Shown: one piece after another, positions 32,570 to 63,921 of the stretch
How the letters are laid out: each line of letters starts with the position of its first letter
How positions within the stretch are numbered: position 1 is the stretch's first letter
Assembly (NCBI GenBank): GCA_015232395.1
Contig: JADFZT010000015.1
Location: 1 to 64,000 of the forward strand
DNA from: Magnetococcales bacterium
Lineage (GTDB): Bacteria > Pseudomonadota > Magnetococcia > Magnetococcales > JADFZT01
Direction: 5' to 3'
Length of the DNA stretch: 64,000 nucleotides
The notes under the pieces: generated by a model
What the model saw: the letters and a program-made list of their open reading frames with translations, nothing else
Database searches by the model: none
Told to the model about the DNA's origin: nothing
Position numbers and translations under genes: made by a program

Positions 32570-34717
32570 ATGGGGCTTTCTCTCCGGCAACGGATTTTTC
32601 TGCGCCTGGAAGGATTGCTGATCCTGCTGATCATCGCTGTTTTTATTTCAACAGCCGCCTTTGATATTCCCAACCATTATCGTGACAGCAAGGCGCTTTA
32701 CGGCAAGCAGGCCCACATTCTGGCACGACAATCCTCTGAACTGATTTTGTGGGATGACCGATTTGGACTAAAAAAACTACTGACAAAAGTCGTTCAGAGT
32801 GACGAAGCCATTGGTTACGCCTTTATCGAAAACAATACCGTTCCTCTGGTGCATACCTTTGCCAAAGGTGTTCCCCAAGAATTGTTGGCGCTTTATTCGG
32901 CAAGGGTTTCGGTAGAAGCGCCAGATAACATCACCCTGGAGGATGAACAGGGACAAATCTGGTTTAATATCAGTGTCAGACTTGAGGATAGCGGCACAAC
33001 CCTTCATATGGGTATCGCCAAAAAAGTTCTTTTTCAGCGGAGCATCCACGATCTTAAAGGCGCGGCTGTTTTCATGCTGGTGCTCTTTTTGATCGGTACG
33101 GCCATCGCCAAAGGCATCACGTCGGTCACCACCCTGGAAGTGGATGCCGCCACAGACTCCCTCAAACGCAGCGAAGAACGATTCCGCTCAGTCACCCAAT
33201 CCGCCTCGGACGCCATCATATCCGTTGACCACGAAGGCCGGATTTTATCCTGGAACAGAGGCGCTGAAATGATCTTCGGATATAGCCAGGATGAAATTTT
33301 GGGGCAACCCGTTGATCGCATTATTCCGGAACGATACCGCCAGAGTCATCATGCTTCCTTTGATGTAGCAGTCAAGATCGGCACCACCAAATTGGCAGGT
33401 CAAGCACTCGAATTGATGGCTTTACACAAAGATGGTCATGAATGTCAGGTGGAACTCACCCTGGGGGATTGGACCATTGGCAAAGTGCACTATTTTTCTG
33501 CTGTCATTCGGGATATTTCCGAGCGCAAAAAAGCCGAGGAAGCCCTTCGGGGCAAGAAGGTCGCTGAGGCGGCCAACCAGGCCAAGAGCCATTTTTTGGC
33601 CACCATGTCCCACGAAATTCGCACGCCCCTTAATTCCATCCTGGGTATGGGTGAACTCCTGAGGGAAACCCAGCTGAACGAAACCCAGGCCTGGTATGTC
33701 AAAACCCTCTCCAGCTCAGGAAATACCCTCTTTAACCTGATCAACGATATTCTCGACCTGTCGAAAGTGGAAGCGGGCCAATTGACTCTGGAACACGCCC
33801 CGTTCAACCTCAAACAACTGGTGGAAGAGAGCTACGAGCTGTTTACCTTTTCCGCTCTGGAAAAGGGAATCGCCTTTGACTATCAATTCGGTGAAGGGCT
33901 TTCCCAGTGGGTGATGGGTGACCAAACCCGGTTGCGGCAGGTGTTGTTAAACCTGATCGGCAACGCCATTAAATTTACCCAGCATGGCTCGGTCACCTTG
34001 ACTGTGGAGGAGAGAAAGGAAGGAAAAATCGCCTTTGTCGTCACCGATACCGGCCCGGGTATTCCCAAAGAAAAACAGGCGGAAATTTTCCATCCCTTCA
34101 CCCAAGCCGATACCTCCACCACCCGAGCTTATGGTGGAACGGGTCTCGGGCTCACGATCTGTCGGCGACTGGCGAATCTGATGGGAGGGGGAATCACCCT
34201 ACAGAGCACAGCCGGTCAAGGTAGCGCCTTTACCTTTACAGCACCGCTTCCAGCTGCCGGGTCGGGAGAAATGGTGACCGTGGAGGCGCTGACATCTGAA
34301 ATGCCCAGCCCTTCCGGAATTACCCCCGCTAATAAGGCTGAACAGAGCCTGAAAATATTGTTGGTGGATGATGCCCTGGATAACAGGCTGTTAGTGCAGG
34401 CTTTCCTGAAAAAAAGCCCCCACCGATTGGTCATGGCCGAAAATGGAGCCGATGCCGTTGCCCAATTTAAAAGCCAACAGTTCGATCTGGTCTTTATGGA
34501 CATCCAGATGCCGGTGATGGATGGCTATCAGGCGACCCGAAAAATTCGTGCCTGGGAGGTCGAAACCGGTGCCAAGCCCACACCCATTCTGGCCTTGACC
34601 GCCCACGCCTTGACCGAAGAGTCGGAGCAGATCAAGGCGGCTGGGTGTGATCTGCACCTGACCAAACCAATCCAAAAAAAACGTCTTCTGGGTGCCATCC
34701 ATCAGTTCATGGGATAA
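32570..34717 (+). CDS. Membrane PAS hybrid histidine kinase
   Basis: 715 residues from ATG 32570 (the frame is open 33 nt further upstream inside the previous gene). Two membrane helices (~10-30 and ~168-190) bracket a ~135-residue periplasmic domain. Then PAS (~205-330, SASDAIISVDHEGRILSWNRGAEMIFGYS), HisKA ([19 protein letters not shown], His ~348), HATPase (GTGLGLTICRRLANLMGG) and receiver (LLVDDALDNRLL, phospho-Asp ~644). The kinase core is close in sequence to those of the kinases at 18957 and 27857, indicating recent paralogy. No HPt. Probably senses the upstream PhnD-like protein. Confidence 0.9.
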   Translation: MGLSLRQRIFLRLEGLLILLIIAVFISTAAFDIPNHYRDSKALYGKQAHILARQSSELILWDDRFGLKKLLTKVVQSDEAIGYAFIENNTVPLVHTFAKGVPQELLALYSARVSVEAPDNITLEDEQGQIWFNISVRLEDSGTTLHMGIAKKVLFQRSIHDLKGAAVFMLVLFLIGTAIAKGITSVTTLEVDAATDSLKRSEERFRSVTQSASDAIISVDHEGRILSWNRGAEMIFGYSQDEILGQPVDRIIPERYRQSHHASFDVAVKIGTTKLAGQALELMALHKDGHECQVELTLGDWTIGKVHYFSAVIRDISERKKAEEALRGKKVAEAANQAKSHFLATMSHEIRTPLNSILGMGELLRETQLNETQAWYVKTLSSSGNTLFNLINDILDLSKVEAGQLTLEHAPFNLKQLVEESYELFTFSALEKGIAFDYQFGEGLSQWVMGDQTRLRQVLLNLIGNAIKFTQHGSVTLTVEERKEGKIAFVVTDTGPGIPKEKQAEIFHPFTQADTSTTRAYGGTGLGLTICRRLANLMGGGITLQSTAGQGSAFTFTAPLPAAGSGEMVTVEALTSEMPSPSGITPANKAEQSLKILLVDDALDNRLLVQAFLKKSPHRLVMAENGADAVAQFKSQQFDLVFMDIQMPVMDGYQATRKIRAWEVETGAKPTPILALTAHALTEESEQIKAAGCDLHLTKPIQKKRLLGAIHQFMG

Positions 34718-35444: not shown

Positions 35445-38225
35445 TTATTTTGGCGGGGGAGAAGGGGCTGGCGGGGATGGTTTGGGGGCTTGGGCAGCCA
35501 TGGATTTGGCCACGGTTTCCACCAGTCGATTGGCCAACACCCGGCTGATATTGAGGTTGAGGTTGGCAATGATGTGGGGAAAAAATTTCATCTTCTGGTT
35601 CATGGTCTTATAGTCAAAAATCAACACTTCCACTTCACTGGCCGCCACCACATCCGCCGTGCGTTCGGTCTCCTGGACAAAACCGATCTCCCCGAAGATC
35701 TGACCCGGCCCCAGCACCGCTACTTTCATCGCCTCGCCGTTGGCATGGCGGATGATATCCACATTGCCGGATAAAATCAGCGCCATGGAGCGGCCTATGG
35801 AACCCTGCTTCACCACCAGATCGCCACTGGCAAAAGTCCGCATCTCCGAAATCAGCACCGCCCGCTTGATCTGAAATTTGGTCATACCGTGGAACAGGGG
35901 GCTCTTGTCCAACACATCCTTCTGAATACTCAAGCCAAGAATCTGGGTGATGCCGATCAGGCGTACCCGGGCCATGATCACCGGTGTCACGAGCAAGTCC
36001 GCCACCAGGGCAAAAAACATGGCCGCCGCTGAAAGCGCCCCGAACTGGGCAATAATGGTAAAATTGGAAAAAGTCAGAACGCTGAAACCCAGCAACAGGG
36101 AAAAACTGGTGGTCACCACCGGCACCACTTCAGCCCGAACCGTCCGCCTGACCGCAAGCCACAGATTGGAAGTCAGACGACACTCCTCGTTATAACGGGA
36201 GAGCAGGTGGATGGTATTGTCGATGCCGATGCCGATGGCGATCACCGCCAACATGGCGGTACCCGGGTTGATGGGGATATCCAGAAGGGCCATCAGGCCA
36301 AACACCATAATGATGGGAATCAGGTTGGGAACCAGGGAGATGAGCCCCCCCTTCAGGGAGGTGAACATCCCCGACATGATGATAAAAATCACCCCCAACA
36401 ACATTGCCAGAGACTCCATCTGGCCCAGCATCAGGTTTTGAGCCGCTGAATTGATCATCAGGTTTTCACCCACCACGGACGCATTCACGCCAGTCCCGGA
36501 AAACCGCTGCACGGTATGTTTTAAATCCCGGATATAGCGGTTCAGGGTGTGGGAGTCGTGGACGTTGTGGCGTACCATGATGATCGCCTGACGATAATCT
36601 TCACTCACATAGTCAGATAAATCCTCGGGATCAAAAAAGAGCAAATACTGTTCGATCATCTCCCGGTTTTCAGGAAGTGTAAAAAACCGACTATCGTTGC
36701 GATGGAAAACCTGGTTGACCCGGGAGAGCACATCGACCAGGGATAGGTGGCTGTCATAAATCCCTTGCTGGTCCATATAATCCTCAATCTTGACCAATTT
36801 TCCCAAATAAGCCGGATCCCTGAAAACCCCCTCCTTTTGGGACTCCAGGTGGATGAAAAAAACTTTCATCCCGGCCAAATCTTCATGAATCAGATCGGTC
36901 TGAACAATCAGGGGTTGATCGGTCTTGAAATAGGAGAGGGGATCGTTGGTTACCTTGAGGCTGGCGGCCTGATAGAGAAAACTCCCCGTCACCAGCAGGG
37001 TCACAAACAGGATGGACTTGGGATAGTGGTGGATCAATCCTTCCAGCTCCACAGCCAGATTGGCGGCCCAGCCCTTTTGACCCAAGGAAGCTGCCCCGAC
37101 ATTTTTTTTCACCGGACCAAAAGTCACCAGCATCAGGGGAATCACCAGGACAGTCACCACGGCATTGATGGCCATGGCCAGGGTCGCGGCATAGGCAAAA
37201 TCCTGAATCAAGCTGATGGAACTCATGGCGTTGCTGGCAAACCCCAAGGCGGTGGTCAGGGTGGTCAAAAAAAGCGGCACCCCCATGTGCTTCATCATAA
37301 AATAGATCGCCTGGCGCCGCCCTTCCCGCCCCTTCCCGGGATTCCCCTGAAAATAGGCAGAGAGCATGAAAGTATCCTCAGTGGAGCCGATCACCACCAC
37401 CAGGGAGGGCAACATGGCACTCAAAATATTGATGGGAATGCCAAGCCATCCCATCAGGCCGAAGGTCCACAAAAGACAGATGGCCGAAGTGGTCAGAGGA
37501 ATGAGCGCTGCCAAAAAGCTGCGCAAAAAGAACAAGATGGAGAGAATCAACAACAAGCCCGACAAGGGGGCCAGGGTGACCATGTCTGAATAAAGATTGT
37601 CCTTTATTTCAGCTGTGACCCGGGGGGAGCCCACCTGAAAAATCTCCTGAAAGGCCCCACCCTGCTCCTGAATAATTCTCTCAAACGCCCCATGTACCCG
37701 CTCTTCGAACCCCTCCTGCTGCTGGGGGTCCACCACGCTCACGGTGATGGCCGTAACCTGACCATTGGGGGATATCAGGTTGTGGACCAGCAGCTGATCC
37801 TGAACCGCCTTGTTTTGGATTTGGGCGATTTTTTCCGGAATTTCCGGTACCTCTCCAAGCAGTGGCCCAAAGGTGACAGCCCCTTGGGAATAGCCCACCG
37901 TCCGAGCTGAAAAAAGGCTTTCCACCTCGCTCACATAGGGCAGGGATTGCAAAGAGTCGTGAATATTTTTCAGGTCGGCCAGGCGCGCCGGGGTCCAGAG
38001 GTCGGGATCCCGGAGATAAAAAATGGTTTTGTTGTCGGAGCCAAACCGGTTGACAATGCGATCATAGACGGGCTTGTCGGGATTGGAATCACTGATCAGA
38101 CTGTTAAAGCTGGTATCCACCTTGAGATCCGGCAGACCCACGGCGGAGAGAACAGAAAACAGAACGAGCAAAAAGAGGGTGACGACCCGATGGTTGGCCC
38201 CAAAGAGCATGAAACGCAAAAACAT
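35445..38225 (-). CDS. RND/MMPL exporter fused to cyclic-nucleotide-binding domain
   Basis: 926 residues. Residues ~1-770 form an RND-superfamily (MMPL/HpnN-like) transporter: first helix VVTLFLLVLFSVLSAVGL, motif VDTSFNSLISDSNP, two groups of membrane helices each with the sterol-sensing-like pattern (SAMLPSLVVVIGSTEDTFML; MLAVIAIGIGIDNTIHLLSRY). Residues ~775-905 form a Crp-type cNMP domain (DKSPLFHGMTKFQIKRAVLI; VKQGSIGRSMALILSGNVDI; FGEIGFVQETERTADV) with the phosphate-binding Glu and Arg (GE..ER-T-A) preserved. Export could therefore be gated by a cyclic nucleotide. The downstream-encoded LolA-like protein is the usual partner of this exporter class. Confidence 0.9.
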   Translation of the reverse strand: MFLRFMLFGANHRVVTLFLLVLFSVLSAVGLPDLKVDTSFNSLISDSNPDKPVYDRIVNRFGSDNKTIFYLRDPDLWTPARLADLKNIHDSLQSLPYVSEVESLFSARTVGYSQGAVTFGPLLGEVPEIPEKIAQIQNKAVQDQLLVHNLISPNGQVTAITVSVVDPQQQEGFEERVHGAFERIIQEQGGAFQEIFQVGSPRVTAEIKDNLYSDMVTLAPLSGLLLILSILFFLRSFLAALIPLTTSAICLLWTFGLMGWLGIPINILSAMLPSLVVVIGSTEDTFMLSAYFQGNPGKGREGRRQAIYFMMKHMGVPLFLTTLTTALGFASNAMSSISLIQDFAYAATLAMAINAVVTVLVIPLMLVTFGPVKKNVGAASLGQKGWAANLAVELEGLIHHYPKSILFVTLLVTGSFLYQAASLKVTNDPLSYFKTDQPLIVQTDLIHEDLAGMKVFFIHLESQKEGVFRDPAYLGKLVKIEDYMDQQGIYDSHLSLVDVLSRVNQVFHRNDSRFFTLPENREMIEQYLLFFDPEDLSDYVSEDYRQAIIMVRHNVHDSHTLNRYIRDLKHTVQRFSGTGVNASVVGENLMINSAAQNLMLGQMESLAMLLGVIFIIMSGMFTSLKGGLISLVPNLIPIIMVFGLMALLDIPINPGTAMLAVIAIGIGIDNTIHLLSRYNEECRLTSNLWLAVRRTVRAEVVPVVTTSFSLLLGFSVLTFSNFTIIAQFGALSAAAMFFALVADLLVTPVIMARVRLIGITQILGLSIQKDVLDKSPLFHGMTKFQIKRAVLISEMRTFASGDLVVKQGSIGRSMALILSGNVDIIRHANGEAMKVAVLGPGQIFGEIGFVQETERTADVVAASEVEVLIFDYKTMNQKMKFFPHIIANLNLNISRVLANRLVETVAKSMAAQAPKPSPPAPSPPPK

Positions 38226-52323: not shown

Positions 52324-55300
52324 TCAGCCTGCCGGAAAATAATTGAGCAAAATTTCCAGGTAGGAGCCGGTTTTGTCCCGCCCCTGGGTAACCCCCTTGG
52401 CAAACCGATCGGGATCGGGGCTTTTTTCCTGAAGGAGTGCGACCACCTCTTGAAATCGACGACGGCTGACAAAGCGGGGTTGATAGCCGGTGCGCCGGTT
52501 GTCGCTCAAGGTGGGGTAGAGGCGCAAGCGTGGCCGCACCCCCTCCCCCTCGGCCTTGACCATCAGGCGCGCCACCAGGCCATAGGGGGGGGCTTTGACC
52601 TTTTGGTAGCGGCCCGGGGAGTTGAATACAAAGTTACCCAGGCTATAGATAATCCAGCACCCTCCCCGCTCCTCCACCTCCTGCAACATATGCCCGCCGT
52701 GGCCCAGGATGAGATCCGCCCCCGCCTCTGCCAACCGGTCCGCCTGGCGGGTTTGACGCTGGGACTTCCAGGCATAGTTTTGCCCCCAGTGGAGAAAGGC
52801 GATAACGAACACCCCGGGATCGGCGGCTTTGAGCCGGGCAATCCGATCACCCAGCTTGTGTTCCCCAAGAGGACAAAGCCCCCCCTCGGTAGCCGTCGCA
52901 TAGGTGCGATATTTGCGTCGATAATCGGGCCGGGTTTCAAAAGCCCCGAACACCGCAAACCGAAAAGGTTTTCCCCCTACCCGAGCTTGGGCGATAAAGG
53001 GCTTGGCAGAGGCTTCATAATCGGAACCTGCACCAAAGAGATGGATCTGGTGTTGGTTTAAAATGTCCAGAGTCTGGTTGAAACCCTCGCGGCCATAGTC
53101 GAAGGTGTGATTGTTGGCCAAGCTCACCACCCGAATGTTGTGGGCCAGCAGTTCCCGAGGGGTTTTTTCCACATCCCCCCAGTGGACATACTGCTTGGTT
53201 TTTTTGAAAGGGGACTCCGGCAAATCGGTCAGGGGGGTTTCCAGATTGGCGATCACCAAATCGCTTTTAAGCAGACTCTCCCGCATCTTGGCCAAAGAGT
53301 GTCCATAGCCCTTCTCCTTGAGCACATTCCCCCTCCCCCGAGCCTCCAGGTCCGCCTGATAGTTTTCTCCAAAGCCGGTATCCCCCACAAAGAGCATATC
53401 CAATTGGTTAGGCTGTCCGGTTTTTTCAAGCACCAGGGTGGGCGTTGTATCGACAACGGGAAGTGCGGCTCTCTTGATGGCTTCGGCTTCGACAGGAGCT
53501 TGATCGGAAGGAGCTGGAATCTCTGGCTGGGGGCTTGCCCGGGAGGATTTGACCTTCACAACCCCGCCCGGCTCTTTCAACGCCTTCACCAATCGATCAA
53601 TGGGGGGCAGGTGGAAGGAGCCTTTGACCAGCACGATATCGTCAGCTCGAAGTTCCTGCAAAACCGCCGCCGTAAAACGCTCCGGATCCTCCCCATGAAA
53701 GCCCTGCTGCCCAACGGGAACCCTCTCCCGCAGATAGGCCATATCCTCTCCCGTGGTGAAGAGCCGCGCCACCCCGGCTGCGATCACCTCATCGGCACAT
53801 TCAGCATGCAGCTGGGCTGATTTGCGACCCATCTCCCGAAAGGCCCCCAACACCGCGATACGCCCCCCCTGCCCCTGGGGCTGCTGCATGGCCAGCACCT
53901 TGAGAGCCGCCTTCAGGGAGCCTGGATTGGCGTTATAGGTGTCGTCGATCAAATGAATCTGCCCGCCCTTGAATGGCAGAGTGAGGCGCTCCATACGCTT
54001 GGGCATGTTGCCAAGAGAAGCCATATCCCGAGCCGCCTGCCGCCAATCACCGCCAGCTGCTTCCACCGCAGCCAACACCGCCAGGCTGTTGGCGATCATA
54101 TGTTCCCCGGCGAGAGAAAGATCGTAGGTAACCGGCTTGCCAAAAACCGTCGCTTCTACCCGACTGCCAGTGGCTGCCAGGGTGCTCTCCACCAGGCGCA
54201 CGTCCGCTTCCCGATGGCGACCATAGGTGACAACACGCAGATCCTCCCGCTGCTCCGCTCTGTTTTTCAATCGGGAAAAGAGCTGCATATCCCGGTTGAG
54301 GATGGCTGTTCCACCCGGCTCCAAACCATCGATCACCTCCCCCTTCTTATCCGCGACCCCTTCCAGGGTATGGAAGTAGACCATATGGCCCCGCTGAATT
54401 TCGGTGATGATGACCACATGGGGGCGGACAAAATGGCTCTTGTCCGCTGCGGAAACGGCAATTTCAAACACCCCATAATCCAAATCCGGCGGGGTGAGGA
54501 TGAGGGTTCCGGCAATCCCCCGGGCATGGTTGCGGTTTTGAATGGTGGAGCCGGTCCGGCCCTGCTTTCTCAAGATGTGCTTCAAGGTTTCGATGGTGGT
54601 GGTTTTGCCGACACTGCCGGTGATGGCGATCACCCGGCCCTGAAACCGCTCCCGGGCGGCACGGGTGAGATCATCCAGGGCCTGACGGCTGTCATCCACC
54701 AGCAGCAGCGGTTTATCTTTGGGCAGCTCCCTGGGAATCTTGTGCACCACCGCCATGGCGGCTCCATCCTTGAAAAACTGGGAAACCTGCCGACTTAGCG
54801 AAGGCCATTTTTTGAGGCCATCCCATTTGCGATCCCACGTCCGGCTCCATTTGGGGTTGGTGGTGAACATCAAATTGCCCACATGTTCATCCCCTTCCCC
54901 GGGACCAAAATCCAAAAATTTATAATATTCCACATGGGAAAAGCCTTTTACTTCCAGGTCATCGCCATTCTTGGAGATCCAGCGCCCATTCACCGCCCGG
55001 GCAATTTCCGCCCCGGTCCAGAGGGTTTTTTTTCTTTTTCGTCTCTTTATCCCCCCGCTACCTGCTCTTTTTTTATCGGACACCGAACCGTTCGGAGATA
55101 AGGAGACCTGCTTCCGAGCCGCCTCTTTCTTCGGCAGATTTTTTTTCTCCGGAATGGCGGTTTTCTTCGGGGCAGCCTTTTTCTCCAATGTCTTGGCGGT
55201 CGACCCCTGATCACCCTCCTTCGCATCTGAAATCAGTGGTGCGGATGGCTTGGATGCCCCCTTGCCCCGCTGTTGCCGATAAAGATCAATCCATCCCACC

Positions 55301-56436
55301 ACTTTTGAGAGGTCATCACATAACAGCGTCAGCCACTCCCCGGGACGGGTATTCAGGAGGGCCAACTCCAGAGCTTGATTCGAATCCGCAGCCTGGCAGA
55401 TACGCTCCCGGGAAACCCCCTCCTGCAACAGCCAACCCACCCCCGCCTCCCCCACACAGATGTATCGGCTGGCCTGCTTCTCCACCCCATCCCACACACT
55501 ACGACTCTCCCCCTCCACCTTCCCTTTTTCAGTCAACAATGCATTGAGCCTCGCTGCCTTGCCTGAAAGCTTTTGGGAAAGGGTTAAAACCGGCTTGATC
55601 CCAGAAGGATCCCCCACCTGGGCCACCACACCGCGAAAGGCAAACCCCCGAATCATTTCAATAGCCAAAGGGCGCGCCAACAGCTCCCTGGTGAGAGTGC
55701 GAATACCCAGGATGATTTTTTCTGGTGGCATTCCCAGCATCCAAGCCAGGGCCGAGGCGTGCAGAGCCATGCGTGGCAGCAACCCCTTCCCCTGATTGAG
55801 GTGACCGACAACGATGGCAAAGAGGGGTCGCCCTTTATCCCAATGAATCAGCGCAGGTCGCCCCTCATGGGAGGCCAGGATAACGGTGGGATGGCCCTTG
55901 TCTCTGTGGCGCTGCATGTGCTGGTTTTCTGAGTCCGCAGAAAAGAGGCAGAGGCGTTGGGCTGGATAATCTTTGGTGAGGGCCAAAACGTTGGGGTCGT
56001 CGCCATTGATCACCACCCCCTTGCTGGCCGTTTGCATAATGCGCTGTAGAGCGTCGTTGGAGCTGGATTTTTTCCGGCTTCCTGAAGCGTCCTCCCCCAC
56101 AGCCCCGAGGATGGCCGCTACGGTACAGGTATCCCGACCAAGCCCCCCTTTCGACACCTCCCTGGGGCGCGCTTCCCCAACAACCACACTCACCGATCGA
56201 TCCCCAACAAGCCGCACCAAACCCTCTGATATATCCTGGGGAGGAGCCCCCTCACACCCGGATACAAAGGTGCCGCCACTGGTAGTCAACCCCACCCGCT
56301 CTCCAGCCAGGGTCAACAGATGCGCCAGGGCGTTGGCCGTGCGTCGGCGATTTCGCAACCCGGAAACAATGATCAGGGGTAGCACGCTATCCGTCCCAAC
56401 CGGGAGCGGTTTTTGCCTTTTGGAAAAATCCTTCAT
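52324..56436 (-). CDS. CphA-like / MurF-like / CapA tri-domain fusion
   Basis: 1370 residues from ATG 56436 (AGGG 6 nt upstream; frame open to 56517). Module 1 (~15-410) follows the C-terminal Mur-ligase part of cyanophycin synthetase: AGERVGLTTSGGTFVSG, a GGLGRDTCTVAAI block, VVINGDDPNVLAL, FSADSENQHMQRHRDKG. Its P-loop reads SGLRNRRRTANAL instead of G-T-N-G-K-T-T. A Lys/Pro-rich linker (~415-490) leads to module 2 (~495-980), an intact MurF-like ligase: AITGSVGKTTTIETL (~605), GEHMIANSLAVLAAV, DDTYNANPGSLKAAL, VLGAFREMG. Module 3 (~1010-1370) is CapA/PgsA-like: FVGDTGFGENY, VIANLETPLTD, VVSLANNHTFDYG, LILGHGGHMLQ. No signal peptide or anchor seen. Likely activates and links amino acids or peptides by ATP-dependent amide bonds; product unknown. 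Confidence 0.88.
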   Translation of the reverse strand: MKDFSKRQKPLPVGTDSVLPLIIVSGLRNRRRTANALAHLLTLAGERVGLTTSGGTFVSGCEGAPPQDISEGLVRLVGDRSVSVVVGEARPREVSKGGLGRDTCTVAAILGAVGEDASGSRKKSSSNDALQRIMQTASKGVVINGDDPNVLALTKDYPAQRLCLFSADSENQHMQRHRDKGHPTVILASHEGRPALIHWDKGRPLFAIVVGHLNQGKGLLPRMALHASALAWMLGMPPEKIILGIRTLTRELLARPLAIEMIRGFAFRGVVAQVGDPSGIKPVLTLSQKLSGKAARLNALLTEKGKVEGESRSVWDGVEKQASRYICVGEAGVGWLLQEGVSRERICQAADSNQALELALLNTRPGEWLTLLCDDLSKVVGWIDLYRQQRGKGASKPSAPLISDAKEGDQGSTAKTLEKKAAPKKTAIPEKKNLPKKEAARKQVSLSPNGSVSDKKRAGSGGIKRRKRKKTLWTGAEIARAVNGRWISKNGDDLEVKGFSHVEYYKFLDFGPGEGDEHVGNLMFTTNPKWSRTWDRKWDGLKKWPSLSRQVSQFFKDGAAMAVVHKIPRELPKDKPLLLVDDSRQALDDLTRAARERFQGRVIAITGSVGKTTTIETLKHILRKQGRTGSTIQNRNHARGIAGTLILTPPDLDYGVFEIAVSAADKSHFVRPHVVIITEIQRGHMVYFHTLEGVADKKGEVIDGLEPGGTAILNRDMQLFSRLKNRAEQREDLRVVTYGRHREADVRLVESTLAATGSRVEATVFGKPVTYDLSLAGEHMIANSLAVLAAVEAAGGDWRQAARDMASLGNMPKRMERLTLPFKGGQIHLIDDTYNANPGSLKAALKVLAMQQPQGQGGRIAVLGAFREMGRKSAQLHAECADEVIAAGVARLFTTGEDMAYLRERVPVGQQGFHGEDPERFTAAVLQELRADDIVLVKGSFHLPPIDRLVKALKEPGGVVKVKSSRASPQPEIPAPSDQAPVEAEAIKRAALPVVDTTPTLVLEKTGQPNQLDMLFVGDTGFGENYQADLEARGRGNVLKEKGYGHSLAKMRESLLKSDLVIANLETPLTDLPESPFKKTKQYVHWGDVEKTPRELLAHNIRVVSLANNHTFDYGREGFNQTLDILNQHQIHLFGAGSDYEASAKPFIAQARVGGKPFRFAVFGAFETRPDYRRKYRTYATATEGGLCPLGEHKLGDRIARLKAADPGVFVIAFLHWGQNYAWKSQRQTRQADRLAEAGADLILGHGGHMLQEVEERGGCWIIYSLGNFVFNSPGRYQKVKAPPYGLVARLMVKAEGEGVRPRLRLYPTLSDNRRTGYQPRFVSRRRFQEVVALLQEKSPDPDRFAKGVTQGRDKTGSYLEILLNYFPAG

Positions 56437-56862
56437 AGCCATCCCTGACCCGTTAAATTCAACATCAACATGAGGCCGTGGCGATTCACTGCCGAACTCA
56501 AAAAAACAGGCTGCCACAGAGCGGTGGAGTGTAGCGAATCACGTTTCCATAACAAAGCCATCAGAGGGAAAATCAGAGGGGAGGGTGAAATTCAGTTTGC
56601 AGGTTTTGCTTTCAGCTTCGGGGATATTCAGCCCTCGTTTTATTCCAACAATCAACCTGACACCTGCATGCCTTTGAGTTCTCAATATTTCATCTATATT
56701 CCCAAGGCTTTGGTAAAACGGCAGGAAGCGGTATTGAACTCTTGCGAACGGAAAAAAAAGCGGGCAATGTTCTCCCATTCGCCAAGCCTCTGCCTGTTCC
56801 AAGGAAAAGGGGCTTAAACCGACCCCTGGCGCGGGTCGACACCAGCCATGGATCATTGAAAA
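56437..56862. other. 426-bp divergent promoter region of the Mur-ligase/toroid locus
   Basis: This separates the tri-domain fusion (minus) from the four-gene toroid series (plus). It holds a short inverted repeat CGACCC (56820-56825) / GGGTCG (56833-56838) just ahead of the first plus gene. A plus-strand frame at 56470-56817 has no protein-like features. The promoters of both units should be here. Confidence 0.5.
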
Positions 56863-58119
56863 ATGCCCTATTCAGATATCACCGGAGACATTCCCCTGGA
56901 GGAGATGCCCGCCTGGGCTAAAAGCCACCTGGAAAAGCTGGTGTGGAAAAAGCACGACCGCTCCATCCTGCTCAACCGGAAAATCCTGCTCCACTCCTTG
57001 GCCCTGGGTCGTCAATTTTTGCTCAACAACCAAAAAGCCGCAGGCAATTTCAATTATCAATACGATTTTGTCTCAGGTCGTCTGGATACCGACGACAATC
57101 AGGTACGCCAAGCGGGTACCACCTGGGGGCTGGCGCTGATCAACCAATATGACCCCACCCCCACCGGGCTTGGGGCTTTGGAAACAGCGCTGGATTTTTT
57201 CGGCAAAAATACCCACCCCGGCCCGGCCCCCGGCTCCCTGCTCATCACCTATCCGGGGATGGACAAATGCGACACCGGCACCGTTGCCTTGGTGACCCTG
57301 GCCCTGATTGAATATTTACGGATGGACAAAGGCCCCAACGCCATGCTTTCGGAGGGGGAGCGACAAAAGTTCAGCGAGCGCTTGGACGGCCATCTGGCGT
57401 TTTTATGCTACATGCACCAGGATAGTGGCCACTTTTCCAAATCCCTCAACTTAAAATCCAAAAAACGCCACCCCCGCTCCAGCCCCTATTTCGATGGAGA
57501 AGCCCTCCTCGCCATGATCAAGGCCGCCCGCTATCTGGATCGCAGCGAGCTGATTCCCCTGATCGAAGAATCCGCCATGGCCATGGCCAAATTTTACACC
57601 CATAGCCAGTGGCAAAAAAAGATCGACAACACCACCACCAAGGGCTTTTTCCAATGGAGCTGCATGGCCTATTGGGAATATCAGGATGCGGGCTGGAAAG
57701 ATGCCGACACCTTCGGCGATCTGCTCCTCTCCCTGGCCTGGTGGATGATCCACTCCCATCGCACGCTTTCCCGGGGGAAAAATACCGGTTATGTCTTTGA
57801 AGGATTGATCCCGGCCCTGCTGGTGGCCAAGGCCCGCAACCACGAAGCCGCCATCCACGATCTGGCCCACACCATCGATATCGGTCTGCGCAAGGTGACC
57901 AGCTGGCAGGTAGGCGGCCCCCTTCAACGGCGCAACGCCCTGCTCACCTCCCGGCCCACCTTTGACCCCCTCGCCTTTGGGGGCATCATGAACGCCCGCC
58001 AGGAACCCATTTTGCGCATTGATGTGGTGCAGCACCAAATGCACTCGGTGGTTCAAGCCCTGCGTCACATCTACACCGCTCCCCCGGCCAAGGGTACCTC
58101 CAGCCGGGTAGCCAGCTAG
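56863..58119 (+). CDS. Alpha/alpha-toroid-like protein (short paralogue, no AMMECR1-like part)
   Basis: 418 residues, no signal peptide. Paired helices with motifs repeated through the protein suggest an alpha/alpha toroid as in glycoside hydrolases, N-acylglucosamine epimerases and terpene cyclases: GNFNYQYDFVSGRLDTDD then NQVRQAGTTWGLALI; HFSKSLNLKS; PYFDGEALLAMIKAARYL; FFQWSCMAYWEYQDAG. The N-x-x-R-[HQ]-A-G-x-x-[FW]-[GA]-L block and the following D-x-x-A-[LI] helix also occur in the three downstream genes, so this is a divergent member lacking their N-terminal domain. 2 nt before the next gene. Enzymatic role unknown. Confidence 0.75.
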   Translation: MPYSDITGDIPLEEMPAWAKSHLEKLVWKKHDRSILLNRKILLHSLALGRQFLLNNQKAAGNFNYQYDFVSGRLDTDDNQVRQAGTTWGLALINQYDPTPTGLGALETALDFFGKNTHPGPAPGSLLITYPGMDKCDTGTVALVTLALIEYLRMDKGPNAMLSEGERQKFSERLDGHLAFLCYMHQDSGHFSKSLNLKSKKRHPRSSPYFDGEALLAMIKAARYLDRSELIPLIEESAMAMAKFYTHSQWQKKIDNTTTKGFFQWSCMAYWEYQDAGWKDADTFGDLLLSLAWWMIHSHRTLSRGKNTGYVFEGLIPALLVAKARNHEAAIHDLAHTIDIGLRKVTSWQVGGPLQRRNALLTSRPTFDPLAFGGIMNARQEPILRIDVVQHQMHSVVQALRHIYTAPPAKGTSSRVAS

Positions 58120-58121
58120 AG

Positions 58122-60041
58122 ATGGCCACGCCAGATGCCATCCAGAAGGGGGCTGGAACGCCAACACCCGGGGATCTGGAAAAAATCACCCTGCCATCCC
58201 CAGCGTCTCCTTTGGCTGGCCCCATTCTGGCCGCGATCCGCACCGCTCTGATCACCGGCGAAAAGCTCCCAGAAACCCTGGATCCTTTTGATCTGGGAGT
58301 GGATGGCAACACCCGCCAGGGTCGGATATTCATCACCCTGTTTCAGCCAGGGTTGAGGCCTCTTATCGGGAGCTCCCAACGCAAGGGATTTACGGATAGC
58401 CTCAATGGGGCCATCGGTCGTCTGCGCAGGCGGCCCCGCTATGCCGATTTTGATCCAACCAGCAGCCAGAATTGCCGAATTTTGCTGGAAATTATCGTCA
58501 GGGAGCAGACCACCACCCTGGAAAAAATGCAGGACACTCTGGCGTTCGGCCCCCACCGTTTTGAGCCAGGCATTACCGGCCTCACGGTTAAGCTCAAAGG
58601 GGAAACCCGACACTATCCCCCCACCCTGGCCGTGATCCGGGGCCACCGCAGCCTGAGACAAACACTCTCCCATCTGGCCCAACAGCTCAACATCCCTACA
58701 CAGGAGGAGTTGGCTGAACACCCCGTGGCATACACCCTGTTGACCAGCCGCGCCTTTGTCACCTACCAGGAGCAGGCCCTTTATCTCTACCGAGGCCTCC
58801 CCTCTCCCCCACCGCTGACCCCGAACGCCCTGAAATATCAACTCACCCAAAGCGGACGCTGGCTGTTGGAGCATATGCAGGAGGATGGCCGGTTTCTCTA
58901 CTATTACCACCTGGGCAAAGATTCCGAGCGGGACCACCATTTTCCGAACAAGCCCGATTTTTACAACATTGTTCGCCATGCCGGAGGCGTGTTTGGATTA
59001 CTCCGATATTATGAACGCCTCCAGGATCCAGCCTATCTTAAAGCATCACGGGGGGCGTTGATCTATCTGGAAAAGCAGTGCCGAAACCATGCTACCACCC
59101 TGGGTGAGGGGTGCTATGTCTACTACAACGCCAAGGCCAAGCTGGGGGCCAGCGGGCTCACTCTGGTGGCCATGGCGCTCTATCGGCGGCTCTCCGGGGA
59201 TACCAGCTTTGATCAAACCCTCCACGGCTTGGCCCGGCATATCATCTCCCGCATCCGCCCGGATGGAGAATTTCTCGGCTTTTACATCCACCCCCGTCAC
59301 AATCGGGGCAACCCCATCATCAAAACCGGCCCCAAACTCCGCAAAAAGCTCTTCTCCTTTTTCTACCCGGGAGAAGCGCTTCTGGGGCTTGCCTATTTTG
59401 TCAACTGGTGTGAACCCGACCCCAAGCTGGCAGCAGCTGTCCGCAAGGGAGCGACCAAAGCCTTGGATTTTTTGGTCCACATCCGCCCGGAACGCTATCA
59501 GGATCTCTATTCGACCATTCCCTCGGATGCTTGGTATATGCAGGCCATTGAGGCGTGGTGGGATGACCCTGAAATGCGCAACCCGGAGTGGAGCAAAGCC
59601 GCTCTGGTGGATGCGCAAAAGATGATCGAAAAAATGTATAAACCGGGAGAGACCCCCTACCCCGACTATACCGGCACCTATGCTTCCCGTTTCGGTAAGC
59701 TGGGCACCCATTATGGCAGCCTTGGCGAAGGGGTGGTGGCGGCTTTTCATCTGGCGAAAAAAACCGGCCAGCGCAACCTCGCACAAAAAATCCGCCAGGC
59801 CCTGCGCCTCCAGGCCAACGCCCTGCTCTCCACCTTTATCAGCCCCGAAGCCGGTTATCTCTGCCGCCAACCGGACAAAGGCATCGGGGCGATCCACTTC
59901 AAGATCAACCAGAGATGGACCCAGGTGGATGCCGTGCAGCATACCGGCTGTTTTTATGCCCGCTATCTGCCCCTGCTGGAAAAAAGCTCGGTGGTTGGCA
60001 AAAGACGCGCCCAGAATAAAAGAGCGCATAGCCAACCTTAA
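58122..60041 (+). CDS. AMMECR1-like plus alpha/alpha-toroid protein, paralogue 1
   Basis: 639 residues, soluble. Residues ~30-225 resemble AMMECR1: GRIFITLFQPGLRPLIGSS, a helix then RPRYADFDPTSSQNCRILLEIIV (cf. P-R-F-x-P-v-x-x-x-E-L-x-x-x-x-I-E-V), GPHRFEPGITGLTVKLKG, and YLYRGLP. Residues ~245-630 are toroid-like: DGRFLYYYHLGKDSERD, FYNIVRHAGGVFGLLRYYE, FFYPGEALLGLAYFV, SDAWYMQAIEAWW, and PGETPYPDYTGTYASRFG near the end. Very close relative of the two following genes, indicating tandem duplication. Short spacing to the preceding gene implies co-transcription. Function unknown; context suggests acting on the product of the Mur-ligase/CapA fusion. Confidence 0.8.
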   Translation: MATPDAIQKGAGTPTPGDLEKITLPSPASPLAGPILAAIRTALITGEKLPETLDPFDLGVDGNTRQGRIFITLFQPGLRPLIGSSQRKGFTDSLNGAIGRLRRRPRYADFDPTSSQNCRILLEIIVREQTTTLEKMQDTLAFGPHRFEPGITGLTVKLKGETRHYPPTLAVIRGHRSLRQTLSHLAQQLNIPTQEELAEHPVAYTLLTSRAFVTYQEQALYLYRGLPSPPPLTPNALKYQLTQSGRWLLEHMQEDGRFLYYYHLGKDSERDHHFPNKPDFYNIVRHAGGVFGLLRYYERLQDPAYLKASRGALIYLEKQCRNHATTLGEGCYVYYNAKAKLGASGLTLVAMALYRRLSGDTSFDQTLHGLARHIISRIRPDGEFLGFYIHPRHNRGNPIIKTGPKLRKKLFSFFYPGEALLGLAYFVNWCEPDPKLAAAVRKGATKALDFLVHIRPERYQDLYSTIPSDAWYMQAIEAWWDDPEMRNPEWSKAALVDAQKMIEKMYKPGETPYPDYTGTYASRFGKLGTHYGSLGEGVVAAFHLAKKTGQRNLAQKIRQALRLQANALLSTFISPEAGYLCRQPDKGIGAIHFKINQRWTQVDAVQHTGCFYARYLPLLEKSSVVGKRRAQNKRAHSQP

Positions 60042-60192
60042 ATGAGTCGCCAGCCTTAAACGTATCTGGCCTCTCAAGGGGTAGATGCCGATAACAGCAG
60101 ACCCGAAAAACCATCGGCCTCGGTTGGCAGCTTAGCTGAAGCCCGATACCGGCCAACGATCCAGGCTTCTCCACCATAGGGATGGCGGGGCC

Positions 60193-62019
60193 ATGATAAA
60201 CCGACTGAGCGGAATTGCGATCATGCCCACCTCCCCTGGCCAATCCATCCTGCTAGCCATTCGCAACGGTCTGGTGACTGGAAACAAGGTTCCCCAAACC
60301 CTCGATGCCCACGATCTGGGGGTTGATTTTAAAAATGATGGGGGACTGCTCTTCATCACCCTGTTTCAGCCGGGAAAAGCCCCTCTCCGGGCTGGCAGCC
60401 AGCGCAAAACATTTCCCGCTACCCTCGACCGGGTAGTGGATCGGCTGCGGAATAAATCCCGATTCGATACATTCAATCCAGAAGATGTTAAAGAGTGCCG
60501 AATCATGGTGGAAATAGTGGTTCGGGAAACCCCGGTGGATGCCAAATCCCTCCACAACTCAACCACCTTTGGCCGCCACCGTTTTGAGCCGGGAGTGACG
60601 GGGATCAAGGCGACCCGGGAGGGCCTATCAAACTATTATCTGCCCACCGACGCCACCATCCACGGCGAACGCCACATATCCCAGGCTTTGAGACGCCTGG
60701 CCAGAATGCACAAGGTGCGTCGTTCCGAGCTGAGCCAGCCTCCCACAAAGCTCATGCTCCTGGAAACCCGGGCCTTCGTCTCCTTTGGTGAGGAGCTGCT
60801 TTTCCTCTTTCGCGGGCTCCCCGCCACCCCGCCCCTCACCCCTACTCTCCTCCGGGAGCAGATGGGGCAGAGCGCCAACTGGTTGATGGACAACCTCCAG
60901 CCCGATGGCCGGTTTCTCTACTATTATCACCTGGGCAGGGATTCCGCTCGGGATCTGGCCAACACCGCCAACCCGGACTATTTCAACCTGGCCCGACACA
61001 CCGGCGGCATCATCGGCCTGCTGCGGATTCACGAACGCCTACCCAACCCCCGCCACCTGGAAACCGCCCAAAAAGCCCTGACCTTTTTGGATCAGCAGTG
61101 CCTTCGGGAGGAGACTCCCCAAGGGGAACACTGTTACGCCTATTATGACAACAAGGCCACCCTGGGAGGCAGCGGTATCGCCTTGATGGCCATGACCTTT
61201 TATCGTCAGCTTTGTGGGGACGACCGCTTTGACGCCACCATGACCGGGCTTGTCCGCCATCTTCTCTCCCGGACCCTGCCCAGCGGGGAGATGCTCTGCT
61301 GCTATATTCATCCCCGGCACAACGACGGCCAACCCCTGCTGGATCCAAGCCCCAAACTCCGCAAGCGCCTGTTCAATCTTTTCTATCCTGGAGAGGCGCT
61401 TTTGGGGCTGATCGGCTATCTTAAAACCGGCATCTGTGAGCCAAAACTGGCTGAAGAGATCCGCGAAGCAGCCAAACGCGCCATCGATTTTTTGGTGCGC
61501 TCCCGCCCCATCGACAAACCCAGGATCTACGACGCCCTCCCCTCGGATTCCTGGCTGATGCAAACCATCGAAGCGTGGTGGCAGGAGCCTGGTTTTCAAG
61601 AACCAGCCTGGCGGGATTATGTCTTTGCCGATGCCGAAAAATTTATTCGTTTCATGTATCAACCCGGAGAGACCCCCTACCCCGACTATCCCGGGGCCTT
61701 TCACCGGGAGTTTGGCGAAGTGGCGCGGCAATACAACAGCCGGGCCGAAGGATTGATGGCGGCACACTATCTGGCGGTCCAAATCGGTGATCGGGCCATG
61801 GCTGATTATCTTCTGGAAAAAATCGAGCTGGTGGCTACCTCCCTGCTGCCGACCTTTGTCAGCCCGGAGTCGGCTTTTTTGTGTCGGGAGCCCCAAAAAA
61901 GTATCGGTGCCATTCGCTTCAAACTCAATCAGCAGTGGGTCCGGGTAGATTCGGTCATGCACACCGTCTGTTTTCAATCCCGTCTCTTACCGGTTTTGGA
62001 AAAAGGCTGCTCCAAGTGA
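60193..62019 (+). CDS. AMMECR1-like plus alpha/alpha-toroid protein, paralogue 2
   Basis: 608 residues; ATG 60193 (MPTSPGQ at 60223 also possible), 151 bp after the previous gene. Same architecture as its neighbours: AMMECR1-like region ~15-200 (SRFDTFNPEDVKECRIMVEIVV, GRHRFEPGVTGIKATREG), toroid-like region ~215-605 (DGRFLYYYHLGRDSARDL, YFNLARHTGGIIGLLRIHE, LFYPGEALLGLIGYL, SDSWLMQTIEAWW, PGETPYPDYPGAFHREFG). It is the most divergent of the three long copies: the N-x-[VL]-x-R-H-x-G core is kept, but GHIR-type lysines and the final TGCFYARYLP-type end become TVCFQSRLLP. Confidence 0.8.
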   Translation: MINRLSGIAIMPTSPGQSILLAIRNGLVTGNKVPQTLDAHDLGVDFKNDGGLLFITLFQPGKAPLRAGSQRKTFPATLDRVVDRLRNKSRFDTFNPEDVKECRIMVEIVVRETPVDAKSLHNSTTFGRHRFEPGVTGIKATREGLSNYYLPTDATIHGERHISQALRRLARMHKVRRSELSQPPTKLMLLETRAFVSFGEELLFLFRGLPATPPLTPTLLREQMGQSANWLMDNLQPDGRFLYYYHLGRDSARDLANTANPDYFNLARHTGGIIGLLRIHERLPNPRHLETAQKALTFLDQQCLREETPQGEHCYAYYDNKATLGGSGIALMAMTFYRQLCGDDRFDATMTGLVRHLLSRTLPSGEMLCCYIHPRHNDGQPLLDPSPKLRKRLFNLFYPGEALLGLIGYLKTGICEPKLAEEIREAAKRAIDFLVRSRPIDKPRIYDALPSDSWLMQTIEAWWQEPGFQEPAWRDYVFADAEKFIRFMYQPGETPYPDYPGAFHREFGEVARQYNSRAEGLMAAHYLAVQIGDRAMADYLLEKIELVATSLLPTFVSPESAFLCREPQKSIGAIRFKLNQQWVRVDSVMHTVCFQSRLLPVLEKGCSK

Positions 62020-62133
62020 TACCATTGCACCGGTTTCGATTTCGGCTTCGGTTTCGGCCAGTCCAGGAAATCAAACCAATCCCGGCTCAGGTTGGCCAAT
62101 CCTCTCTCAAAATCCGACAAAGAATCCACTGAT

Positions 62134-63921
62134 ATGACTTCGACACCCCTATCGATTGCCATATTTCAAGCCATTCGTGAGACTCTCATCTCCGGGAAAG
62201 AAATTCCCGAAACCCTGGATGCCCACGATCTGGGAGTGGTTTTTCAGCCCAGCTTGAGTCAACTGCGCATCACCCTTTTGGAGGCTGGCCAACCCCGTTT
62301 ACGCTCTGGAGGGCGGCGGGCCACTTTTCCAGCCACCCTTCAGGCGGTGTGTAAACGACTGCGCCAACGCCCCCGTTTTTCAGAGTTCGACCCTTCAGAC
62401 CCCATGCGCTGCCGTATTTTGTTGGAAATTGTGGTGCAGGAGAGAGAAGCCGATCTGGCCAAAATGGCTGAAACCGAAACCTTCGGTCCCCACCGCTATG
62501 AACCGGGCATCACCGGCTTGAAGGCCAGCCTGGAGGGTAAAAGCCACTATTATCTGCCCACCGATGCGGTTTTTCTGGGCCATCGTAATCTCAAAAGCAC
62601 CCTGCGCAGCATCGCCCGCGCCCTGAAACTCACCGGGGAGACGCTGGCAGAGCACCCCATTGATTTTCATCTGGTGGAGAGTCGCGCCTTTGTCACCTAC
62701 GAACAAAACGTGCTCTTTCTCTATCGAGGCCTCCCCCCACCGCCCCCCCTCAACCGGGAAACCCTGGAGAGGCTACTGGATGCCAGTGGCCGCTGGATGC
62801 GGGACCATATGCGTGAGGATGGCCGCTTTCTCTACTACTATAATTTAGCCAACGACTCTGAAAAAGATCATTTCCACCCCAAAAACCCCAGCTACTACAA
62901 TATTGTTCGCCACTCCGGCGGGGTATTTGGATTGCTGCGGTTTTATGAATGGTGTGAAGATCCGAGCTATTTGGAAGCGGCCAAAAATGCCCTGATCTTC
63001 GTAGAGGAGCAGTGCCGAAGCCACGACACCCCTTGGGGAGAGGGGCGCTATGTTTTTTACAATCGCAAGGGCAAACTGGGGGGGACAGGCTTGGCCCTGA
63101 CCGCTCTGGCGCTCTATCGCAAGCTCTCCAAAGACACGCGCTTCGATGAGTTGATGACTGGCATGGCCCGGCACATCATCTCCCGCATATTGCCGGATGG
63201 CGAGATGATCGGATTTTTCATCCATCCCCGTTTTCATGGGGGGGGGCCCATTGAAAATCCTACCCGAAAGGAGCAGGCGAAACTCTTTTCATTCTACTAT
63301 CCGGGAGAAGCACTCCTGGGGTTGGCCTTTTTTGTCCAGGAAGGGTTTGCCGACCCGGAACTCGCCGCTACCATCCGGGAAAAAGCCCGACTCACCCTCG
63401 ATTTTATCATCAAAATCCGCCCCAAACGCTATCCGGAGCTATACAGCAGCCTTCCCTCGGACGCTTGGCTGATGCAGGCCATCGAAGCGTGGCACGACGA
63501 TCCTGAAATGCGCAACAAAGCCTGGAATCGATTTGTCTATTCCGATGCCCAAAAGATGATCGACCACATGTATCAACCCGGAGAGACCCCCTATCCTGAC
63601 TATGCGGGCACCTTCCGAACCCATTTTGGCGCCATCGGCAACCACCAAGGCAACCGGGGTGAAGGGTTGGTGGCGGCCTATCATCTGGCGAAAAAAACGG
63701 GAGAGAGAAGACAGGCCAATAAGTTTCATAAAGCCCTGATGCTCCTGGCCTCTTCCCTGCCCCAAACATCCGTCACGCCGGAGTCCTGCTATCCCTATCC
63801 CAATCCGGAAAAATGTATCGGCTCCATCCGGTTTAAATCCAACCAAAAATGGGTCCAGGTGGATTCAGCGCAACACACCGCCTGCTTTTATGCCCGGCTG
63901 CTGCCGCTGTTGAAGAAATAA
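62134..63921 (+). CDS. AMMECR1-like plus alpha/alpha-toroid protein, paralogue 3
   Basis: 595 residues from ATG 62134, chosen because its start (TPLSIAIFQAIRETLISGKE) aligns with the start of homology in the other copies; a TTG at 62092 would add 14 residues. AMMECR1-like part: QLRITLLEAGQPRLRSGG, RPRFSEFDPSDPMRCRILLE, GPHRYEPGITGLKASLEG. Toroid part: DGRFLYYYNLANDSEKD, YYNIVRHSGGVFGLLRFYE, YYPGEALLGLAFFV, SDAWLMQAIEAWHDD, PGETPYPDYAGTFRTHFG. It is closest to paralogue 1. The gene ends 79 nt before the window's edge, so the series may continue. Confidence 0.8.
   Translation: MTSTPLSIAIFQAIRETLISGKEIPETLDAHDLGVVFQPSLSQLRITLLEAGQPRLRSGGRRATFPATLQAVCKRLRQRPRFSEFDPSDPMRCRILLEIVVQEREADLAKMAETETFGPHRYEPGITGLKASLEGKSHYYLPTDAVFLGHRNLKSTLRSIARALKLTGETLAEHPIDFHLVESRAFVTYEQNVLFLYRGLPPPPPLNRETLERLLDASGRWMRDHMREDGRFLYYYNLANDSEKDHFHPKNPSYYNIVRHSGGVFGLLRFYEWCEDPSYLEAAKNALIFVEEQCRSHDTPWGEGRYVFYNRKGKLGGTGLALTALALYRKLSKDTRFDELMTGMARHIISRILPDGEMIGFFIHPRFHGGGPIENPTRKEQAKLFSFYYPGEALLGLAFFVQEGFADPELAATIREKARLTLDFIIKIRPKRYPELYSSLPSDAWLMQAIEAWHDDPEMRNKAWNRFVYSDAQKMIDHMYQPGETPYPDYAGTFRTHFGAIGNHQGNRGEGLVAAYHLAKKTGERRQANKFHKALMLLASSLPQTSVTPESCYPYPNPEKCIGSIRFKSNQKWVQVDSAQHTACFYARLLPLLKK

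Follow-up and report, generated by a model that had tools for sequence, protein, structure and literature searches.

A divergent Mur ligase–CapA fusion and AMMECR1-toroid proteins in a Magnetococcales bacterium: a candidate modification system for Asp-repeat secreted proteins

Long Ser-Asp and Asp-Ala repeats are well known from bacterial adhesins (Sdr/Clf, Pls, BapA, and Bap-like proteins), and a dedicated enzyme family tracks them across phyla. The best studied case is that of Pls, whose full glycosylation, at Ser of the repeat, requires GtfC and GtfD, absolutely so with the genes of strain 1061; GtfC, a protein of 538 amino acids (aa) encoded directly downstream of pls, is not recognized as a glycosyltransferase by CAZy (PMC5230774). 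BapA of Paracoccus denitrificans, a type-I-secreted protein needed for biofilm, carries 891 Asp-Ala repeats and runs above its mass on gels, and its authors could not exclude a modification (PMC5588039). In the sources that we found, no modification of Asp repeats other than Ser glycosylation is shown. Here, we describe a locus of a Magnetococcales bacterium in which a gene encoding a fusion of two Mur-type modules and a CapA module is divergent from four genes of toroid proteins. It lies in the stretch of 64,000 nucleotides that we analysed (the window; positions 1 to 64,000 of contig JADFZT010000015.1). We found no description of this Mur/CapA/toroid system in the open-licence literature. 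On balance, we favour the view that the locus belongs to a widespread system, in one of its forms, for the post-translational modification of secreted proteins that are Asp-rich or contain Asp repeats.

The toroid/Mur set can be read as an adhesin modifier because relatives of its toroids accompany giant Asp-X-repeat adhesins in several phyla. What the toroids constantly accompany is not a ligase but a secreted Asp-repeat protein made by the ribosome: no ligase was found near the toroid in Listeria, Enterococcus, and most Gastranaerophilales. Proteins with Asp-X tracts are encoded in the toroid loci of three Agrobacterium plasmids, Rhizobium, Nitratireductor, Sulfitobacter, Klebsiella, Thioclava, Staphylococcus haemolyticus, S. 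simulans, Listeria, and Enterococcus, as well as of the proteobacterial genomes G171, G084, G040, G306, and G379, and of Melainabacteria (loci L089 and L080). Whether beside toroid relatives or in the same genome, the tracts are of the (Asp-Ala)n, (Asp-Ser)n, (Asp-Gly)n, and poly-Asp types, and they occur in Pseudomonadota, Bacillota, and Cyanobacteriota.

The association was also visible at the level of genomes. Among 399 Pseudomonadota genomes, which were searched for a pattern of twelve Asp codons at every second position, the pattern was present in 8/11 genomes with a toroid and in 33/388 others (Fisher p=8e-7); for high-quality genomes, the respective numbers were 7/7 and 28/332 (Fisher p=7e-8). 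In 194 Cyanobacteriota genomes, counted as positive with at least 20 matches to a ten-codon pattern and as toroid-bearing with a strong toroid match, long tracts were found in 41/42 toroid genomes, as compared with 7/152 others (p=1.5e-33). Tracts were present in 46 of the 48 toroid-bearing Gastranaerophilales.

Toroid proteins 1–3 of the window (Table 1) share 48–56% pairwise identity. The N-terminal part of a toroid model obtained with AlphaFold2 from an 18-sequence alignment (mean pLDDT 85.6, pTM 0.84) resembled in Foldseek the AMMECR1-fold structures 1zq7, 1vaj, and 1wsc. The C-terminal part was nearest to (alpha/alpha)6 barrels of the N-acylglucosamine/cellobiose 2-epimerase (AGE) superfamily, with a target-normalized TM score of about 0.6, and GH76/GH105 enzymes were also among the folds closest to the barrel. 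Family libraries barely recognize these proteins. The window toroids had no AGE sequence-family match, the AMMECR1 Pfam match in one paralogue was weak (E 0.002, below the cut-off), and the cysteine of what we take to be the typical AMMECR1 motif (LRGCIG type) is absent from the aligned segment of the paralogues. No solved structure was found among the sequence relatives of toroid protein 1.

A search of named genomes returned 121 relatives of the AMMECR1-toroid proteins, 80 of which were retained, nearly all from Gastranaerophilales/Melainabacteria at 33–40% identity. Another subfamily, which has diverged further, is present in Magnetococcales, the order of the window, and elsewhere in Pseudomonadota; with tblastn on plasmid-collection records, it was found in Agrobacterium, Rhizobium, Nitratireductor, Sulfitobacter, Variovorax, Klebsiella, Acinetobacter, Staphylococcus, Enterococcus, and Listeria. 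Profile comparison shows the two subfamilies to be homologous: hhalign paired the window-type profile with that of the proteobacterial and Gram-positive toroids, the pls-linked toroid included, over 495 columns and both domains (probability 99.1, E 1.8e-18). In S. haemolyticus, pls is followed directly by a 538-aa gene whose product is itself a toroid protein, and because this gene occupies the equivalent position, GtfC is probably a member of the family, matched by gene order and length and not by the SACOL0051 sequence. Residues N282, R285, H286, K340, G342, Y415, G417, E418, D469, W471, E536, D603, and H607 (numbered as in toroid protein 1) are conserved in 26 or 27 of 27 members. As these residues, constant across phyla, all fall within the barrel, they suggest that the barrel contains an active site. 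In the 418-aa toroid, two of the residues constant in 27 other toroids are altered (H286 to Q and D469 to S); the Q at the H286 position is common to this protein and the Thioclava toroid.

The 1397-aa fusion matched PGA_cap (E 1.5e-51), Mur_ligase_M (E 2e-33), and Mur_ligase_C (E 6e-20) in family libraries. In an alignment, the MurF-type module has intact catalytic motifs, namely the P-loop TGSVGKTT, the lysine of ADKKGE, and DDTYNANPGS, and the UDP-MurNAc-binding N-domain motif of canonical MurFs was not seen in it. The module scored 277.9 bits against TIGR01143, under the cut-off of 288.6, and is 35% identical to a separate MurF encoded by the same genome on contig C33 (G000:C33). The cyanophycin-synthetase match of the first module reached 128 bits against a family cut-off of 877. 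Alignment with other Mur enzymes revealed that its P-loop is gone, with GLRNRRRT in place of a GxxGKT-type loop, and no ATP-grasp match was obtained for the fusion in the family-library scan. This module is probably non-catalytic. It may be a relic of a Microvirga-type protein, as suggested by a cyanophycin-synthetase-like ATP-grasp and a Mur remnant fused to CapA within a type I secretion system (T1SS) locus of Microvirga (E 2e-124). The CapA module also matches the model of the lasso-peptide Trp epimerase MslH (NF038314; E 1.5e-12, 46.6 bits against a cut-off of 700), as do other CapA modules of the system. Among the locus proteins scanned, which include a MurF-type ligase and a CapA domain, no PgsC-like gene was recognized. 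Alphaproteobacterial MurFs matched by the fusion were rejected as members of the system, being ordinary cell-wall genes.

These results confirm what an earlier note observed in the DNA letters of the window and support its interpretation in part. The five reading frames are at the positions that it gave, as confirmed from the open reading frame coordinates. Its assignment of two Mur-type domains and CapA to one protein is borne out by the library matches, with the refinement that the first Mur module is degenerate. The AMMECR1-like region joined to an alpha/alpha-toroid, which it saw in three genes, was recovered by AlphaFold2 and Foldseek, the fourth gene being toroid-only.

The partner domains of the toroids vary. 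A MurF-type ligase is fused to or encoded beside toroids in Agrobacterium, G084, G040, Thioclava, and staphylococci, where the order is pls-toroid-Mur, and CapA and MurF together are fused to a toroid in G379 (twice) and G038. Other toroids occur with a YheCD ATP-grasp domain (G006 and G046, read from sequence), with YheCD and two cyanophycin-synthetase ATP-grasp domains (A. tumefaciens Tul002, E 3e-111), with Fic and MurF (G045, Fic read from sequence), or with CapA (Acinetobacter and the Melainabacterium locus L089, in which a Mur-type ligase, CapA, and a toroid are encoded together by separate genes). Cyanophycin-synthetase modules recur in the window fusion, A. tumefaciens Tul002, and Microvirga. 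Two toroid–glycosyltransferase fusions (Klebsiella and G171), whose best match is SdgA/SdgB (E about 1e-40), are both encoded beside (Asp-Ser)n adhesins. The toroid–MurF fusions mostly accompany (Asp-Ala)n tracts, in which Asp is the sole reactive side chain.

MurF-type enzymes use ATP to convert a carboxylate into an acyl phosphate, which is then joined to an amine; they add one unit and do not polymerize. We propose that, in the system described here, ribosomes would make the protein backbone, and type I secretion would usually export it, or an LPXTG motif anchor it. The core component would be an AMMECR1-toroid protein of the GtfC type that acts on or engages the Asp-X tract, recognizing it and probably altering it chemically. 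Tailoring domains would vary by lineage, from MurF-type ligases, cyanophycin-synthetase or YheCD ATP-grasp domains, and CapA to SdgA/SdgB-type glycosyltransferases. In this genome, tailoring would fall to the divergent fusion, whose MurF module would activate carboxylates for coupling to an amine, most simply those of Asp side chains as in cyanophycin, because an (Asp-Ala)n tract offers Asp as the only reactive residue. The degenerate cyanophycin-synthetase module would serve as a scaffold, CapA, a metalloenzyme, may epimerize or process the product, and the modified protein would leave the cell through TolC. Mur-type ligases probably form amides on Asp side chains. The more general proposal, that Mur-ligase/cyanophycin-synthetase-type ligases guided by GtfC-type toroids add amino acids or other amines to Asp side chains of ribosomal (Asp-X)n stalks from Bacillota to Cyanobacteriota, is one that we make tentatively, with somewhat more doubt than belief.

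The contig extends to position 70903, beyond the window, and encodes there a secreted-type RTX-repeat protein with a poly-Asp upstream part (up to 80% Asp per 60 residues), which is likely to be the local substrate of the toroid/Mur set. This assignment is the weakest step of the mechanism, because the gene is cut off by the contig end, is encoded on the other strand, and is separated from the last toroid gene by 5.4 kb; the protein also has Asp runs with no strict Asp-X alternation. These points weigh against a modification system of the proposed kind, and several others add to them. We infer its chemistry, that is, toroid catalysis, Asp side-chain amidation, the amine used, and the role of CapA, as well as the local substrate. 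The staphylococcal and Klebsiella loci concern Ser glycosylation and not Asp amidation, and GtfC is linked to the toroids without its own sequence. At the Variovorax toroid locus, no Asp-X tract was found, and at the Acinetobacter baumannii locus, a tract of just 16 residues was found (a 38-aa DA insertion has been reported for Acinetobacter, PMC4647330). In Gastranaerophilales, the (Asp-X)n tracts are mostly not adjacent to the toroid gene. Finally, the Fisher tests ignore relatedness; the tract-positive toroid genomes stem from several families and phyla.

Two alternatives appear to us unlikely to about the same degree. In the first, which is centred on glycans, the repeat would bear sugars, the toroid, like AGE enzymes or glycoside hydrolases, would act on these sugars, and the Mur/ATP-grasp ligases would join amino acids to sugar acids. 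The closeness of the barrel fold to sugar epimerases and GH76/GH105 enzymes fits such a role, as do weak GH88/GH76/C5-epimerase matches of the Gram-positive toroids, the SdgA/SdgB-type domains fused to some toroids, and the glycosylation of Pls by GtfC/GtfD. However, (Asp-Ala)n tracts contain no Ser or Thr for O-glycosylation, and within the DA-type, Listeria, Enterococcus, and window loci the toroids have neither a fused nor a neighbouring glycosyltransferase, although the genomes may encode one elsewhere. In the second, the toroid would be a non-catalytic carrier or chaperone, which binds the unfolded acidic repeat, keeps it competent for export, and presents it to fused or neighbouring enzymes. 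It would then be natural for the toroid to stay constant while its catalytic partners vary, and for full Pls glycosylation to take GtfC in addition to a real glycosyltransferase, GtfD. Nevertheless, the barrel is of an enzyme type, and the polar and charged positions that it conserves from phylum to phylum (N, R, H, K, E, D, D, H) resemble an active site.

A stand-alone polyamide pathway, as suggested in the earlier note, or a capsule pathway appears less probable still. In the view of the note, the fusion would make a non-ribosomal polyamide or peptide conjugate similar to poly-glutamate or cyanophycin, CapA would export or anchor it, and the toroids would process it. The combination of CapA with a Mur-type ligase does recall PgsA/PgsB, and the recurrence of cyanophycin-synthetase modules points the same way, but in the fusion of the window the cyanophycin-type module is devoid of a P-loop and is not joined to an ATP-grasp domain, and the addition of single units by MurF-type enzymes does not suit a polymer. 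Moreover, many toroid loci have no ligase, whereas almost all have an Asp-repeat protein. As this protein is the constant partner, action on the repeat or its preparation is a more likely role for the toroids than the processing of a polymer that the ligase has made. The functional link between Mur-type ligase, CapA, and toroid that the note proposed stands, since it recurs in L089, Thioclava, staphylococci, Acinetobacter, and the proteobacterial fusions. The link was to be doubted if the fusion and toroid genes rarely occurred together in other genomes; such rarity was not observed, yet the exact three-module fusion has no second copy among 48 genomes of the order Magnetococcales. It is very improbable that the fusion merely duplicates MurF for a variant of the peptidoglycan pathway and has unrelated toroid neighbours, as its MurF module, despite good scores against MurF models, stays below the family cut-offs and shows no canonical substrate-binding N-domain motif, the genome has its own MurF, and the ligase–toroid linkage recurs in distant lineages.

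Table 1. Features of the Mur/CapA/toroid locus and of the adjoining part of contig JADFZT010000015.1.
Feature	Position	Strand	Basis
Three-module fusion, 1397 aa: degenerate cyanophycin-synthetase Mur module, MurF-type ligase, CapA/PGA_cap	52324..56517	-	
CapA/PGA_cap metalloenzyme module of the fusion, residues 1041-1299	52621..53397	-	PGA_cap E 1.5e-51
MurF-type ligase module of the fusion, residues 578-981	53575..54786	-	MurF match E 1e-105
Cyanophycin-synthetase-type Mur module of the fusion, residues 40-416	55270..56400	-	NF010623 E 2.9e-37
Intergenic region between the divergent fusion and toroid genes, 345 bp	56518..56862	.	Open reading frame coordinates
Toroid-only protein, 418 aa, divergent, without N domain	56863..58119	+	
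Toroid protein 1, AMMECR1 fold and AGE-like (alpha/alpha)6 barrel	58122..60041	+	
AMMECR1-like domain of toroid protein 1, about residues 28-225	58203..58796	+	AlphaFold2, Foldseek
(alpha/alpha)6 barrel of toroid protein 1, about residues 230-630	58809..60011	+	AlphaFold2, Foldseek, conservation
Toroid protein 2, AMMECR1 fold and barrel	60193..62019	+	
Toroid protein 3, AMMECR1 fold and barrel	62092..63921	+	
Protein kinase fused to formylglycine-generating-enzyme (FGE/SUMF1)-like domain, between the toroid genes and the TolC-like gene	64046-65923	-	
TolC-like outer-membrane efflux protein with SPOR domains	65964-68987	-	
Secreted-type RTX-repeat protein with poly-Asp upstream part; gene runs off the contig end	69317-70903	-	

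The toroid loci differ in the kind and length of the tract. In Agrobacterium pusense pR76, genes for TolC, a BapA-type adhesin with a 344-residue Asp-Ala tract, a T1SS ATPase, HlyD, and a toroid–MurF protein lie together; A. tumefaciens pAspH13-3a and A. tumefaciens Tul002 also encode tract proteins, the latter with a tract of 504 residues. Tracts of 448 and 320 residues were found in Nitratireductor thuwali, where toroid and MurF are encoded by separate genes, and in Sulfitobacter, respectively. Thioclava electrotropha has an Asp-Gly tract, a T1SS, and toroid and Mur genes that are divergent, as in the window. The Asp-Ser tract of Klebsiella aerogenes comprises about 1800 residues and that of G171 2220 residues within a 3389-residue frame, and G084 has an Asp-Ala tract with a T1SS. 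Among the Gram-positive loci, there are tract proteins in S. haemolyticus (pls) and S. simulans, an LPXTG protein with an Asp-Ala tract of 292 in Listeria, and a tract of 52 in Enterococcus gilvus. In a 6-Mb genome of the cyanobacterial phylum, a gene for an Asp-Gly protein is directly upstream of the toroid gene. No tracts were seen near the toroid/T1SS loci L093, L095, L096, L097, and L166 of the window's own order, and these loci are not counted as examples of the association; two of the genomes with such loci (G006 and G038) have tracts, several at contig ends. The genome of the window encodes a second poly-Asp protein on contig C9 (L176 8357-9763), with repeated surface-layer-like domains, CxxCH-like motifs, and a pure Asp run at its end, and the genome's own Asp-pattern matches at twelve-codon stringency may stem from this gene and not from C15.

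In Acinetobacter, genes for Bap, a toroid, CapA, and a metalloprotease are arranged in a row. A Bap-toroid-CapA cluster is also present in a record filed as Acinetobacter phage MD-2021a (L200, CAKLQH020000021.1), along with the housekeeping genes carB and greA, and this record looks like host DNA. A small secreted protein is encoded beside proteobacterial toroid genes (L094 5491-6477, L097 7808-8755, and L161 5220-6179). In L094 and L097, it has a metallopeptidase-like motif, PAHELFHLYQYG, no Pfam family was found for the two copies scanned, and it could possibly be a protease for adhesin release or maturation. Locus L166 encodes a 1666-aa fusion of an AMMECR1-like/toroid part, a Fic-like segment (HPFPDGNCR), and a MurF-type ligase (6991-11991), with an asparagine-synthetase-like gene and an aminotransferase-like gene as neighbours. 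The Mur gene that follows pls and the toroid gene in S. haemolyticus pSH_12b_1 (L183 13558-15288) is probably broken, as its P-loop stretch, kept in S. simulans and S. aureus pWBG759, is missing.

Some toroids (L183 11932-13548, L190 13929-15587, and L180 19914-23048) bear the public name 'poly(glycerol-phosphate) alpha-glucosyltransferase', and others are usually annotated as hypothetical. No glycosyltransferase domain was found in the stand-alone toroids with this name, which probably spread from the toroid–glycosyltransferase fusions. In the Gastranaerophilales loci L013-L092, the toroid gene often faces a convergent member of a multi-copy gene family (start MGMAASQAR...), which is probably behind many of the contig ends near toroid genes. 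An Asp-repeat gene was considered as the cause of the contig ends after the toroid and rejected for most of them, as the tails carry this unrelated family. An operon-level link of Gastranaerophilales toroids with SMC/ScpAB was seen and is not taken as functional. Elsewhere, the window is rich in hybrid histidine kinases (27857-31366 and 32537-34717) and encodes a hybrid sensor kinase with four SBP_bac_3 family stretches (18957-23258) and an MMPL/sterol-sensing-type transporter fused to a cyclic-nucleotide-binding domain (35445-38225).

Amidation of Asp side chains in this way, if it occurs, would add a new kind to the known modifications of proteins, and bacterial surfaces would in effect carry a version of cyanophycin that is encoded by genes. 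It would bear on biofilms, on the binding of calcium, and on recognition by the immune system, and it would offer a way to cyanophycin-like polymers of defined sequence. We class the system with the modification of adhesin repeats by enzymes of the same locus, as a variant that bears amide ligases; the example studied so far is GtfC/GtfD. There, a 538-aa protein whose place in S. haemolyticus is taken by a toroid is required for a surface protein with Ser-Asp repeats to be fully modified. However, GtfC is described as a glycosyltransferase, its partner is a glycosyltransferase, and there is no Mur ligase/CapA fusion, whereas the window combines three AMMECR1-toroids and one short toroid with an amide-ligase partner. 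SdgA and SdgB, the O-glycosyltransferases of Ser-Asp-repeat adhesins, also target alternating Asp-X repeats, and domains of their type are fused to toroids in Klebsiella and G171, but they have no toroid domain of their own, and no such domain is present in the window. Cyanophycin synthetase (CphA) resembles the system in its ATP-grasp and Mur modules and in the chemistry of Asp carboxylates; it builds its own poly-Asp backbone, in contrast to the ribosomal backbone proposed here, and the corresponding module of the window has neither a P-loop nor ATP-grasp. Poly-gamma-glutamate synthesis (PgsB/CapB, PgsC, and PgsA/CapA) likewise combines CapA with a Mur-type ligase, while the window differs in the lack of PgsC, in the MurF type of its ligase, and in the Asp-repeat protein as partner. 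MslH, a CapA-family enzyme, is related through the CapA modules that match NF038314, the one of the window being far below the cut-off. BapA is a type-I-secreted Asp-Ala-repeat adhesin like those accompanying the toroids, with the difference that no modifying enzyme is reported for it (PMC5588039).

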